A stretch of DNA of 64,000 nucleotides from Hyphomicrobiales bacterium. Lineage in GTDB: Bacteria > Pseudomonadota > Alphaproteobacteria > Rhizobiales > Beijerinckiaceae. The DNA lies in NCBI GenBank assembly GCA_028290705.1, contig JAQGJH010000115.1, positions 1 through 64,000 of the forward strand, in the 5' to 3' direction. Position 1 is the first letter of the stretch, and every line of letters begins with the position of its first letter. The notes beneath the pieces were generated by a model, which made no database searches, was not told the origin of the DNA, and was given only the letters and a program-made list of their open reading frames with translations. Shown in pieces: positions 48,794 to 54,710 of the stretch. The position numbers and the translations under genes were made by a program.

Positions 48794-51148
48794 TCAGCGG
48801 CCGCTGCGCCGGCTGTCCGGCTTCCCGGTTTGTTCGGGGCTCTGCATCCCGGCGCGCCGCAAGGCGTCAGCCAGCAAACCGCCCGCAGACGAAGCCGGCC
48901 GCGCCGTCGGAACTGGCGACTTCGGCATGCGCACCGGCGGTGTGGCGCTCCGGCCGCGCGGGACGGACTCGGAAGCATTCTGATCGAGCCGCATCGTCAG
49001 GGCGATCCGCTTGCGCGCTGCATCGACCTCCAGCACTTTCACCCGCACCACGTCCCCGGGCTTCGCCACCTCGCGCGGATCCTTCACGAAGGTGCTGGAC
49101 ATGGCCGAGATATGGACGAGCCCGTCCTGATGCACGCCGATGTCGACGAACGCCCCGAAGGCCGCGACATTGGTGACGACGCCTTCCAGCATCATGCCCG
49201 GCGCGAGATCCGAGATTTTCTCCACGCCGTCCTGGAAGGATGCTGTCTTGAAGCTCGGCCGCGGATCGCGTCCGGGTTTTTCCAACTCTTTCAGGATATC
49301 GGTCACCGTCGGAAGCCCAAAATGCTCGTCGGTGAACTGGCTCGGTTTCAGCGCGCGTAACGAGGCAGCATTGCCGATCAGAACCTTGATGTCGCTCTTC
49401 GTCGCCTCGATGATCCTCCGCACGACGGGGTAGGCTTCGGGATGTACGCTCGATTGATCGAGCGGATCCTCGCCATCGCGGATGCGCAGGAAGCCGGCGC
49501 TGAGTTCGAATGCCTTGGCGCCAAGCCGTGGCACGTTCTTGAGCGCCGTCCGGCTTCGAAAGGGCCCATTCTGATCCCGGTGGAGCACGATGTTCTGCGC
49601 AAGGCTTTCGCTCAGCCCGGAGACCCTCGCCAACAAGGGAGCCGACGCCGTGTTCACGTCCACTCCCACCGCATTCACGCAATCTTCCACGACAGCATCG
49701 AGAGAGCGGGACAGCTTGGCCTCGCTCAGGTCATGCTGGTACTGACCGACGCCGATCGACTTCGGATCGATTTTGACGAGTTCAGCGAGCGGATCCTGCA
49801 GACGTCGAGCGATCGACACGGCGCCGCGGATCGAGACATCGAGATCGGGCAGTTCCGCCGAGGCAAAGGCGGAGGCCGAATAAACCGAAGCGCCCGCCTC
49901 CGAAACCATCACCTTGGTGAGTTTGAGATCCGCCGCCAGCTTCAGCAGATCGGCCGCCAGGCGGTCGGTCTCGCGTGACGCCGTGCCGTTGCCGATCGCG
50001 ATCAATTCGACCGAGTGCTTGCGGCACAGGTTGCCGAGGATGGCCAACGACTCGTCCCACCGTCTTTGCGGCTCGTGAGGATAGATGGTCGATGTCGCCA
50101 CGACCTTGCCGGTCGCGTCCACGACCGCCACCTTGACGCCCGTTCGGAAGCCGGGGTCGAGGCCGAGCGTCGCCCGCGCGCCGGCCGGCGCGGCGAGGAG
50201 CAGATCGCGCAGGTTGCCGGCGAAAACCTTGACGCCTTCGTCCTCCGCCTTCTGCCAGAGCCTCACGCGCAGATCGACCGCGAGACTCGATTCCATGCGC
50301 GTCCGCCAGGCCCAGCGCACGACGTCGGAAAGCCACTTGTCGGCCGCCCGGCCGAGCGCCGCTACCCCGACGCGTGCCGCGATCCTGTTTTCATACAGAC
50401 CCGGCGTTCCAGGCGGAGGAGCCTCCGGTTCGGCATCCAGTTTCAGGTCGAGAACCTCTTCCTTCTCGCCTCTGAACAAAGCCAGGATTCGATGGGACGG
50501 GAGTTTTGCCAAAGGCTCGGAGAAATCGAAATAGTCCGCAAACTTCGCGCCTTCGACTTCCTTCCCGGCCCGCACGCAGGAGCGCAGAATTCCCTGCGAC
50601 CAGAACGTTTCGCGCAACCTGCCAATCAGTTCCGCATCTTCCGAGAAGCGCTCCACCAGAATGGAACGCGCGCCATCCAGCGCCTGCTCGATCGTGTCAA
50701 TGCCCTTCTCGGCATCCTTGAATGCTTCTGCGACGAGGCGCGGTTCGAGCGTCGGGTCCGCCAGAAGGTTGAGCGCCAGCGGTTCCAGCCCTGCCTCTCG
50801 GGCAATCTGGGCCTTGGTCCGGCGCTTGGGCTTGTAGGGCAGATAAATGTCTTCCAGCCGGGCTTTCGTCTCGGCGGCATTGATCGTCGCCAGGAGACCG
50901 TCGTCGAGCTTGCCCTGCTCGCGAATGCTCTCCACGACGGCCTTTCGACGATCTTCGAGCTCTCGCAGATAGCGCAGGCGCTCATCCAGCGTTCGCAACT
51001 GCGTATCGTCCAGCGTGCCCGTGACCTCCTTGCGGTAGCGGGCAATGAACGGAACGGTCGCGCCCGAATCGATGAGATCCACGGCCGCCCCGACCTGCCA
51101 TTCCTCAACGCTCAGTTCACGAGCCAGACGCTGGTTGATCGAAATCAT
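48794..51148 (-). CDS. tex: Tex-family transcription accessory protein (S1 RNA-binding)
   Basis: [49 protein letters not shown]-terminal S1 domain [22 protein letters not shown]. Confidence 0.96.
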
Positions 51149-51258
51149 GCATTCATCCTGCGAATCAAGGGAGGCAACCTGACTATTGCCGGCGACCCGC
51201 GGGGTCAAAGGGAGCGCTGGGCGGTTGTGGGTAACTCGCCAGCGCGAATCAGCCGCCT

Positions 51259-51284
51259 GGAACCAAATCGCGCCCTCACGCGTT
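51259..51284 (+). promoter_or_regulatory. EcfG-type promoter, exact GGAAC-N17-CGTT
   Basis: GGAAC caaatcgcgccctcacg CGTT, 36 nt ahead of the ATG at 51321. Confidence 0.65.
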
Positions 51285-51320
51285 ATCTCTGAGTACAGTC
51301 AAGCTCAAACAAGGAACCAG

Positions 51321-51467
51321 ATGACGTTTGAAATGAAGAATAACGAGCATGAAGCGCATTGCGACGAGGCTTTGGAGAACCAGGTCGAAGTCAAGGATGA
51401 GCGCGAGATCCACGGCGGTTTGACCCGTGAGGAACTCCGCGCCATCGTCGTAGAGATGATCGGCTGA
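51321..51467 (+). CDS. 48-aa acidic small protein MTFEMKNNEHEAHCDEALENQVEVKDEREIHGGLTREELRAIVVEMIG
   Basis: In-frame ATG directly downstream of the exact EcfG-type promoter; AAGGA about 6 nt upstream. Confidence 0.65.
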   Translation: MTFEMKNNEHEAHCDEALENQVEVKDEREIHGGLTREELRAIVVEMIG

Positions 51468-51535
51468 TCGATGATCTTAGCTGTCGATTTCTTCTCATTT
51501 TCCGCGGCGAGAGCGTAGCCCGACACCCGACGGGC

Positions 51536-53713
51536 TCAACTCCCGCGACCTTCGCTGGCCAAGGCCGGCGCAACCATTGCAATCACGTTTCCTGAACCTG
51601 AAACGCTCGGCCGTTCCGACAAGGCTTTGCGGACAGTCAAAGCCAAGATATCCGGACGATATGGCTTGGGCACAAGAACGAAGCCGTCCGCCAGAACCTT
51701 GGCGGCCGCCTCACTGTAGCCCGTGGCCAGGACGATGAGCACGCCGGGGCGGCGCTCTCTCACGGCACGCGCGAGATCCAGCCCGTCCATCGTGCCTGGC
51801 ATGACCAAGTCCGAAAACACGAGTTCGATCGAAGCGTCGGAAATGATGATCTGCAGCGCCTGATCGGCCTGCGAGGCCTCCACCACGTCATGCCCCTCCT
51901 CGGCCAGGATCGACGCGGCGAGTTCCCGGACTTGCGGATTGTCCTCGACGAGAAGGATCCGGGCCGGTCGGCGCTCGCTTGCGACCTCCACCGAAACGGG
52001 AGAGGCTTCAGCCACGACCTCACCGGAGGCGCGTGGGAGCAGGAGCGACACGGTCGTGCCCCGCCCAACCTCGCTGGAAATGTCGACAGCCCCGCCTGAC
52101 TGATGAATGAAGCCGGTCACCTGCGACAAGCCGAGGCCCGTTCCGCGACCGATCTCTTTCGTCGTGAAGAATGGCTCGAACGCACGTTCGAGCACCTCCG
52201 GCTGCATGCCCGACCCGGTGTCCGAGACCGAGATGGCGACGCCAGGCCCCTCGCCCAGAGCGCTGTTGACTGTTCGAACGACGAATGAGCCTCCGCGGGG
52301 CATGGCATCTCGTGCATTCACCGCAAGGTTGATCAGCGCGGTCTGCAGCTGAACCGGGTCCACTTCAACGGGCCAGATCTTGTCGGCCAGATCCAGTTCG
52401 AACTTGATGTCCCCGCGCAGCGACTGGATGATCATGTCAGTCATGCCCGCAATGAGCATGTTCACATCCAGGATTTCCGGGCGGAGATTTTGCCGGCGGC
52501 CAAAAGCCAGCAATTGCTGGGTCAGACGCCGACCCTGCTCGACCGCGTGCATGCCATTGTCGATAAGTCGGGGACGGCGATCTTCCTTTGCGCGTCTGAG
52601 AAGATCGAGATTCCCCATGACGACGGTCAGAAGATTGTTGAAGTCATGCGCGATGCCGCCGGTGAGCTGACCAAGCGCCTCCATGCGTTGGGCGGTCACC
52701 AGCTTCGCCTCGGTTTGCTTGTGTCGCTGCGTCTCCTCCAGAAGGTTCTGCACGGCCTGCTGGGCGCCTCGCGTCCGCGAAAGCGCCAGATAGGTCATGG
52801 ACCCGAGTCCCAGCATGGCCGCGAGGGCGAAAGCCGCAAACAGCGCCATCTGCTCCCACCAGCGCGCCAAAACGGCTTTGGTGCCGACCGCGAACATGAC
52901 ATAGACCGGGGCATCATTCAGCTTCCGGTACGACACCAGGCGCTGAACTTTGTCGATCGTCGAGATGCCCACGTAGGTTCCGGACGGAGCCTTCGCGGCC
53001 GCTTCAGCGAACATCGAGCTGGCGCGCTGCTCTGTCGTCTGCTCAGCGGTGTGTGCGTCACGCACGATGAAGATGCCGTCATGCCTGATCAGCCCCGCGG
53101 AGTAATTGAGATCGGGCGCGGCATTGGCGAAACGCTGCCGGAAGAATTCCGGAGAGCTCGACACGACGATGGCGCCGCGCAACTCACCTCCCGCGCCCAG
53201 CAGAGGGCGAGAAACATTGATCAGAGTCCGGCCGGAAGAGCGTGCCTGGGAGGGTTGGCTGATGAACAATCCCCGTTCGCCACTCTTGAAAGCTTCGAGG
53301 AAATCTGGAGATTCCAGGGCTTGAAATCCGGTCGGGAAACGCAGGCTCGAGTTCAGCGGAACGCCATTGACGTCGACGACCCACAGCGATCCCAACTGTG
53401 CGTATGAACCGACGATGGATTTCAGTCTGTCGTGCAGGGCGGCCGACCCCTGGATCTCCCCGTCGGATAGCTGTGCTACCGAATCATCTACCCGGTCCAT
53501 GGCGAGTTCGAACGTCTCGAAAACCGTATCGAATTGCGCTCGAAGTGTTTCGGCCATCCGGGCGGAGGACGCCTTCGCATCCTCGACTGCTTGATCGTGG
53601 CTGTGCCAGGCGGCAAGAGCCAGCAACGAAGCCGGAATCAGGATGGATGCGACCAGCAGGCCCCAAAGTATTTTGACCGCGCCCTCGGTCCGTACGTGAG
53701 CCTGTGTTGGCAA
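51536..53713 (-). CDS. Membrane hybrid histidine kinase with Cache-like sensor and C-terminal receiver, probable TTG start
   Basis: TM segments flank a Cache-like extracytoplasmic region; [18 protein letters not shown]-box; [23 protein letters not shown]-terminal REC ILLVEDNPQVREL...LVFSDLVMPG. Confidence 0.9.
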   Translation of the reverse strand: MPTQAHVRTEGAVKILWGLLVASILIPASLLALAAWHSHDQAVEDAKASSARMAETLRAQFDTVFETFELAMDRVDDSVAQLSDGEIQGSAALHDRLKSIVGSYAQLGSLWVVDVNGVPLNSSLRFPTGFQALESPDFLEAFKSGERGLFISQPSQARSSGRTLINVSRPLLGAGGELRGAIVVSSSPEFFRQRFANAAPDLNYSAGLIRHDGIFIVRDAHTAEQTTEQRASSMFAEAAAKAPSGTYVGISTIDKVQRLVSYRKLNDAPVYVMFAVGTKAVLARWWEQMALFAAFALAAMLGLGSMTYLALSRTRGAQQAVQNLLEETQRHKQTEAKLVTAQRMEALGQLTGGIAHDFNNLLTVVMGNLDLLRRAKEDRRPRLIDNGMHAVEQGRRLTQQLLAFGRRQNLRPEILDVNMLIAGMTDMIIQSLRGDIKFELDLADKIWPVEVDPVQLQTALINLAVNARDAMPRGGSFVVRTVNSALGEGPGVAISVSDTGSGMQPEVLERAFEPFFTTKEIGRGTGLGLSQVTGFIHQSGGAVDISSEVGRGTTVSLLLPRASGEVVAEASPVSVEVASERRPARILLVEDNPQVRELAASILAEEGHDVVEASQADQALQIIISDASIELVFSDLVMPGTMDGLDLARAVRERRPGVLIVLATGYSEAAAKVLADGFVLVPKPYRPDILALTVRKALSERPSVSGSGNVIAMVAPALASEGRGS

Positions 53714-53755
53714 TTCGTTCCGCCCCTCGTCCGGCTTACACCCCGGGTCATGGAC

Positions 53756-53780
53756 AACGCAAGGCTCCGCCCATGGTTCC
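53756..53780 (-). promoter_or_regulatory. EcfG-type promoter, exact GGAAC-N16-CGTT, upstream of the Cache hybrid kinase
   Basis: Reverse strand GGAAC catgggcggagccttg CGTT. Confidence 0.65.
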
Positions 53781-53822
53781 ATGAGCGACCGATGATGCCA
53801 AACACCCGACACAGACGAGCCG

Positions 53823-53848
53823 GGAACCTGCCCGCCGGAAGTGAAGTT
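53823..53848 (+). promoter_or_regulatory. Candidate EcfG-type promoter GGAAC-N17-AGTT
   Basis: GGAAC ctgcccgccggaagtga AGTT, 44 nt ahead of the ATG at 53892. Confidence 0.4.
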
Positions 53849-53891: not shown

Positions 53892-54710
53892 ATGAGCGAC
53901 GCGACCGAGGAGGAAAGCGGACGACATGCCGCCGGCGCCCCGGAAGCCTTCGTTCCGAAGGCTTCCCCCAAACTGAACAACCCTGAAGCCGAGGGCTTCT
54001 ACGCCGTCGCTCTTGAAGAGCTCGCCCGGCTGAAGCTCCCGTTTCTCCTCGCCGGCACATACGCCGTATCGGCTTATACCGGGATCGTCCGGCAGACCAA
54101 GGATCTGGATATCTTCTGCAAGGCGGGCGACTTCACCCGGATCCTGGCCCATTTCCAATCGCTGGGCTACGCCATCGAGATCGAAGACGAACGCTGGCTC
54201 GGAAAGGTCTACAAGGGACAGCACTTCTTCGACGTCATTTTCGCGTCTTCGAATTCCACCATGCCGGTGGGTGACGCATGGTTCGAGGACGCACGGGAGA
54301 TCGAGATCTTCGGCCAGCCCGCCCGTATTCTCGGACCAACCGAACTCATCTGGTCGAAGTGTTTCATCCAGCTCCGGCATCGCTACGACGGCGCCGACGT
54401 CGCCCACACGATCTTGCGCGCGCATGACCAGATCGACTGGCACAAGCTGCTGGCCTACATGGAAGTCCATTGGGAGGTGCTCCTGATGCACCTCCTCAAC
54501 TTCCGCTGGATCTACCCGACCGAGCGCGAACACATTCCTCGCTGGCTCATGGACGATCTGCTCGACAGGTTGAGCAAGCAGCGGGAACTGCCACCCCCAC
54601 AGATGAAGGTGTGCCGCGGTCGCATGTTCTCGCGCATCGATTTCGAGATTGACGTGAAGGAATGGGGTTTTGCCGATGTCGGAGGCGAGGGAGACTGGCG
54701 CAATGACTGA
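53892..54710 (+). CDS. Nucleotidyltransferase-fold protein
   Basis: LPFLLAGTYAVSAYTGIVRQTKDLDIFCK (G-[G/S]-like loop with DxD). Confidence 0.75.
   Translation: MSDATEEESGRHAAGAPEAFVPKASPKLNNPEAEGFYAVALEELARLKLPFLLAGTYAVSAYTGIVRQTKDLDIFCKAGDFTRILAHFQSLGYAIEIEDERWLGKVYKGQHFFDVIFASSNSTMPVGDAWFEDAREIEIFGQPARILGPTELIWSKCFIQLRHRYDGADVAHTILRAHDQIDWHKLLAYMEVHWEVLLMHLLNFRWIYPTEREHIPRWLMDDLLDRLSKQRELPPPQMKVCRGRMFSRIDFEIDVKEWGFADVGGEGDWRND

Follow-up and report, generated by a model that had tools for sequence, protein, structure and literature searches.

Predicted EcfG-type promoters ahead of a microprotein gene and a hybrid histidine kinase gene in a Beijerinckiaceae genome, and a microprotein family with a conserved C-terminal helix

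Introduction

SRA and RMF of Escherichia coli are small, stationary-phase, ribosome-associated proteins. In the alphaproteobacterial general stress response, histidine kinases of the HWE/HisKA2 type (e.g., PhyK and Pak) feed PhyR. To our knowledge, the effect of this response on translation is poorly known, and we know of no earlier description of either the microprotein or the hybrid histidine kinase treated here as an EcfG target. The EcfG promoter has been given as GAAC-N16,17-C/GGTT in Methylobacterium extorquens (PMC4814048) and as GGAAC-N17-20-GTT in Sphingomonas melonis (PMC6599016).

Here, we analyze a stretch of 64,000 nt (the window; contig JAQGJH010000115.1, assembly GCA_028290705.1) from a Hyphomicrobiales bacterium of the Beijerinckiaceae. 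A first-pass annotation had reported two exact matches to the EcfG-type consensus, one ahead of a gene for a 48-aa acidic protein and the other ahead of a gene for a Cache-type hybrid kinase. Both sites are indeed present and exact, namely, GGAACCAAATCGCGCCCTCACGCGTT (GGAAC-N17-CGTT, positions 51259 to 51284, plus strand) at the small gene and GGAACCATGGGCGGAGCCTTGCGTT (GGAAC-N16-CGTT, positions 53756 to 53780, minus strand) at the kinase gene. They share the −35 and −10 boxes and the spacer of the M. extorquens promoter (PMC4814048) and are close to the S. melonis pattern (PMC6599016).

The microprotein is like SRA and RMF in its size, its predicted stress control, and a ribosome link that is suspected from gene neighbors alone, whereas its family differs from them in that the N-terminal charge is not conserved. 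With the NepR anti-sigma factors (PF18557) it has in common that it is small, helix-forming, and stress-linked. However, neither the small protein (P0001) nor its relatives gave a match to the PF18557 profile at E values of up to 10, which agrees with the earlier remark that the protein does not look like NepR. Like the HWE/HisKA2 stress kinases, the kinase is a sensor histidine kinase, and its context too is one of stress; it differs from them in having a HisKA domain and a receiver domain of its own.

Results and discussion

Exact EcfG-type sites in the window and in the genome

The window holds five exact GGAAC-N16/17-CGTT sites, compared with 0.99 expected from shuffled sequences, of which 1 in 100 reached five. 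The box of the small gene lies 36 nt from the ATG start, and that of the kinase gene lies 42 nt from the probable TTG start. A scan of the region for sigma-70 promoters found none, terminator-like sites in the region were not above chance, and an Rfam scan of the region and of 20 family loci returned tRNAs only.

Throughout the 3.02-Mb genome, the raw count is barely above chance (56 exact sites versus 45 for the reversed pattern). Raw counting, being this near background, was rejected as evidence, and positional and comparative tests were used instead, with the 45 reversed-pattern matches as control sites. Up to 3 kb was taken around each motif or control site, besides which the analysis of the genome covered a few other named loci, and genes were predicted by means of a codon model for which the window served as the training sequence. 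Noncoding positions account for 43 of the 56 motif sites but for only 9 of the 45 controls (Fisher P = 1.1e-8; the genome is about 90% coding). Likewise, a start on the same strand follows within 250 nt for 30 of 56 sites, versus 7 of 45 controls (P = 8e-5), so that the enrichment upstream of genes for which a genome-wide scan had been suggested was found. The genes behind the sites encode PRC-barrel, DUF1328, DUF308, SWIB, trehalose phosphatase, EgtB-like, DUF1236, MscS, PNPOx-like, ExoD, MdoG, and GreA/B proteins, an RpoH-like sigma factor, catalase, and glycogen synthase. This is a typical general stress response set, and the EcfG regulon of Sphingomonas comprises similar target gene classes (PMC6599016). 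No canonical phyR-nepR-ecfG locus turned up in the window's genome, the assembly of which is 74% complete; the PhyR-NepR-EcfG system is present in genomes of the same genus (e.g., G181:C73).

Chance matching would account for raw counts so near background, but it leaves the noncoding enrichment and the stress genes next to the sites unexplained, as well as the retention of exact boxes in relatives whose spacers have diverged (see below), and we regard it as extremely unlikely. From position and conservation, we predict that both genes very probably carry EcfG promoters; EcfG would then bind at both boxes, a sigma dependence that we infer.

The small gene in related genomes

The small gene (positions 51321 to 51467, plus strand) begins with an ATG codon at 51321 and has an AAGGA Shine-Dalgarno sequence just upstream. 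A longer version of the ORF that begins with TTG (51186 to 51467) was rejected: the promoter would fall inside the gene, and the extra part is not conserved. Conservation of the 48-aa frame in related genomes, an earlier proposal for a check, was found in seven other genomes (loci L001 to L005, L016, and L017). Codon differences in the conserved C terminus, mostly at third positions, number 242, of which 166 are synonymous and 76 nonsynonymous, indicating a translated reading frame that is subject to selection. The 48-aa ORF is almost certainly a real conserved gene.

The divergent neighbor of the small gene is tex (positions 48794 to 51148, minus strand), which by Pfam encodes an S1-domain RNA-binding protein and is kept in the clade of the small gene. 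It adjoins the small gene in L002 to L005, L016, and L017, while the L001 contig stops short of it. The EcfG-type box is exact and in the same place in L001 to L004, where the spacers are only 6 to 53% alike, and is absent in L005, L016, and L017. In total, five of the eight clade loci have exact boxes, compared with 0.002 expected per 250 nt.

The hybrid kinase and the nucleotidyltransferase gene

The kinase gene (positions 51536 to 53713, minus strand; the TTG start at 53713 is the probable one among the start candidates) encodes, in order, a dCache sensor, HisKA, HATPase_c, and a receiver domain according to Pfam, which fits dCache hybrid histidine kinases. The dCache_1 score of 42.8 bits is just below the cutoff of 45, and dCache_1_like exceeds its cutoff. 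The dimerization domain is HisKA (PF00512, 3.5e-8), with no HWE_HK or HisKA_2 domain found in the protein. The protein is 71% identical to the kinase encoded at L001, the gene of which has its own exact GGAAC-N17-CGTT box with a different spacer; upstream of kinase homologs from other genera (34 to 45% identical), no EcfG box was found. It is likely that EcfG raises the level of the kinase, which would be one more stress sensor.

Divergent from the kinase gene is a gene for an NTP_transf_5 nucleotidyltransferase (Pfam; positions 53892 to 54710, plus strand), which in L002 and L003 lies downstream of the small gene. An EcfG-like site with one mismatch (GGAAC-N17-AGTT, 53823 to 53848, plus strand) precedes it in the window, and the genes in L002 (from position 2172 onward) and L003 (from 4335 onward) have exact EcfG boxes of their own. 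With exact boxes in two relatives, this gene is itself a candidate stress gene.

A microprotein family defined by its C-terminal helix

AlphaFold predicts a helix at residues 36 to 47 of the small protein (pLDDT of 85 to 87 for the block), preceded by a disordered remainder of low confidence. This helix, GLTREELRAIVVEMIG (positions 51417 to 51464, plus strand; alignments A1 and A2), defines the family. It is conserved as GL[ST]R-x-E-[LIM]-R-x-[IL]-V-x-x-x-[ILM]-G and ends at the stop codon, and the window protein has the broader family pattern [LI][ST]R-x-E-[LIMT]-[RKQ]-x-x-[VI]-x-x-x-[ILM]-G-stop. The typical family end is W-[RK]-P-[EQ]-P-C-G-L-[ST]-R-[ED]-E-L-R-x-I-V-x-E-x-[IL]-G-stop, the W-x-P part of which is missing in the window clade. 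A family protein would consist of an N-terminal tail that is disordered and changes fast, followed by a conserved amphipathic helix that runs up to the stop codon.

In the genomes of the order that were retrieved, a profile of the C terminus matched 48 distinct small proteins. Further members, many in Rhizobium and some in Azospirillum (another order), are encoded on plasmids and match profile A2 with E values of 1e-12 to 6e-6; a plasmid search with the window protein returned nothing, and these members were found with diverged relatives as queries. A class-wide profile search of 289 genomes outside the order gave no match at E < 1e-4, yet the Azospirillum plasmids hold members. Outside the window clade, an exact EcfG box was found at only two members (L020 and L032). 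Net charge among family members ranges from −8 to +5. The 48-aa protein had been described as acidic, which is so in the window clade; homologs elsewhere have pI values of up to 10.8, and acidity, as calculated from the protein sequences, is a clade feature. The idea of an adaptor or anti-factor, which had been based on it, was not borne out.

No Pfam or NCBIfam model covers the family, its motif had no match in the literature searched, and no mention of a family with such a C-terminal helix was found in papers on small alphaproteobacterial proteins. A PDB profile search with the small protein gave chance matches only, and no structure or domain match pointed to a partner of the helix. The family appears to be unnamed in the libraries searched; promoters of the kind described here are already known.

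Many family members outside the window clade have leaders of 100 to 200 nt that are seemingly rich in GC hairpins (L018, L020, L023, L026, L027, L033, and L044 to L046); those scanned had no Rfam match.

Gene neighbors of the family

In Rhizobium, the small gene lies 26 to 40 nt upstream of rpsU in all five annotated plasmid records examined, and an S21 gene is also found at the unannotated small-gene loci of R. tropici CIAT 899, CC1099, and BG6. In Sinorhizobium B11, rpsU is absent beside the small gene. On three Azospirillum plasmids, the downstream gene is infC; in Microvirga, cspA is the divergent neighbor of the small gene, and rpsU lies behind; and in L033, cspA follows directly. A DUF4167 gene comes directly after the small gene at nine loci (L018, L019, L023, L025, L027, L031, L035, L041, and L049).

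A neighbor of the rpsU, infC, cspA, tex, or DUF4167 class is found at 17 of 39 family loci versus 2 of 45, 2 of 50, and 0 of 19 control loci of equal size, a ratio that should not be overread, as the classes were picked after inspection. The hits of two control sets (those of genome G000) overlap at one place. Neighbors of these classes are lacking at more than half of the family loci. Nevertheless, the recurrence of these neighbors across separate lineages and in differing arrangements would be hard to get by chance.

Two side observations were made at these loci. The protein next to the small gene in several genera is a short DUF4167 protein, and DUF4167 may share a pathway with the family. 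On Rhizobium plasmids (L195, L196, and L200 to L205), a copy of rpsU followed by a gene for a 64-aa hypothetical protein (MDELNSLTVSEERL...) forms a conserved cluster, and several such rpsU clusters also have a PNPOx-like gene.

Possible function and competing explanations

The reading that we prefer, with a probability of roughly 0.6, is that the small gene and the kinase gene would be two separate members of the EcfG general stress regulon, neighbors by happenstance, and that the small protein would be a helix microprotein docking onto the translation or RNA machinery. The C-terminal helix would make contact with a translation or RNA-handling component, and in the window lineage, EcfG control would yield the small protein under stress to adjust that machinery. 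The target itself is a tentative part of this proposal, suggested by gene neighbors, and may well prove to be another. Still more tentatively, the family could be a new alphaproteobacterial one that binds the ribosome or RNA machinery (given its links to rpsU, infC, cspA, and tex) and that here ties the EcfG response directly to translation control. The interest of the family lies in its being small, widespread, and testable: one lineage has exact EcfG promoters at the gene, and others have translation or cold shock genes as neighbors.

The first-pass annotation had instead proposed a stress-induced pair. The two genes are convergent, as it had stated, and their stop codons are 68 nt apart. 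The small acidic protein as an adaptor or anti-factor of the adjoining kinase, both being induced together by EcfG, would suit this adjacency as well as the exact boxes at both genes in the window and in L001. However, L001 is the only one of the seven other clade loci to keep the kinase; its place is taken by the nucleotidyltransferase gene in L002 and L003, by glgX in L004, and by other genes in L005, L016, and L017. Because six loci lack the kinase, a functional pair is not supported. These same loci keep the small gene (L002 to L004 with its box), which makes it the more stable of the two at this place, with the kinase as a lineage-specific neighbor. Elsewhere, family members adjoin unrelated genes, and the acidity is not conserved. 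The adaptor role is thus very unlikely, and the two genes probably form no obligate pair.

Two other explanations concern the small protein itself. The family ORF could act in cis, as a leader peptide or a nascent-chain sensor, to control the gene that follows it (e.g., rpsU, infC, or cspA), its C terminus being the sensing segment. Conservation is confined to the C terminus, up to the stop codon, and in Rhizobium, Azospirillum, and L033, a gene of the same strand follows at a short distance. For the Rhizobium and Azospirillum arrangements, this is the best rival. It cannot explain the window, because the next downstream gene there is convergent and offers no cis target; moreover, the Microvirga members are divergent from cspA, and the downstream gene in L002 and L003 has its own promoter. 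For the family as a whole, we consider a leader peptide unlikely. Alternatively, the protein could act in feedback on EcfG, NepR, or PhyR as an unrecognized NepR-like or PhyR-binding helix, for which a short amphipathic helix under EcfG control in the window clade could be suitable. Such a role is improbable in view of the lack of NepR similarity in Pfam, the absence of the EcfG box at most family members, and neighbors that are not stress regulators.

Other loci with stress response traits

At L072/L174 2403 to 2984 (minus strand; on G000:C99), a response regulator has a NepR-like C-terminal segment (23 bits; Pfam cutoff, 25.7), and another receiver-like gene adjoins it; a fusion of a receiver with NepR would be unusual. 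In G000:C86:18201-22171 (L109 and L122), two EcfG sites flank an FMN-reductase gene and a gene for an 83-aa protein, and the same stretch also holds a cold shock or S21 gene.
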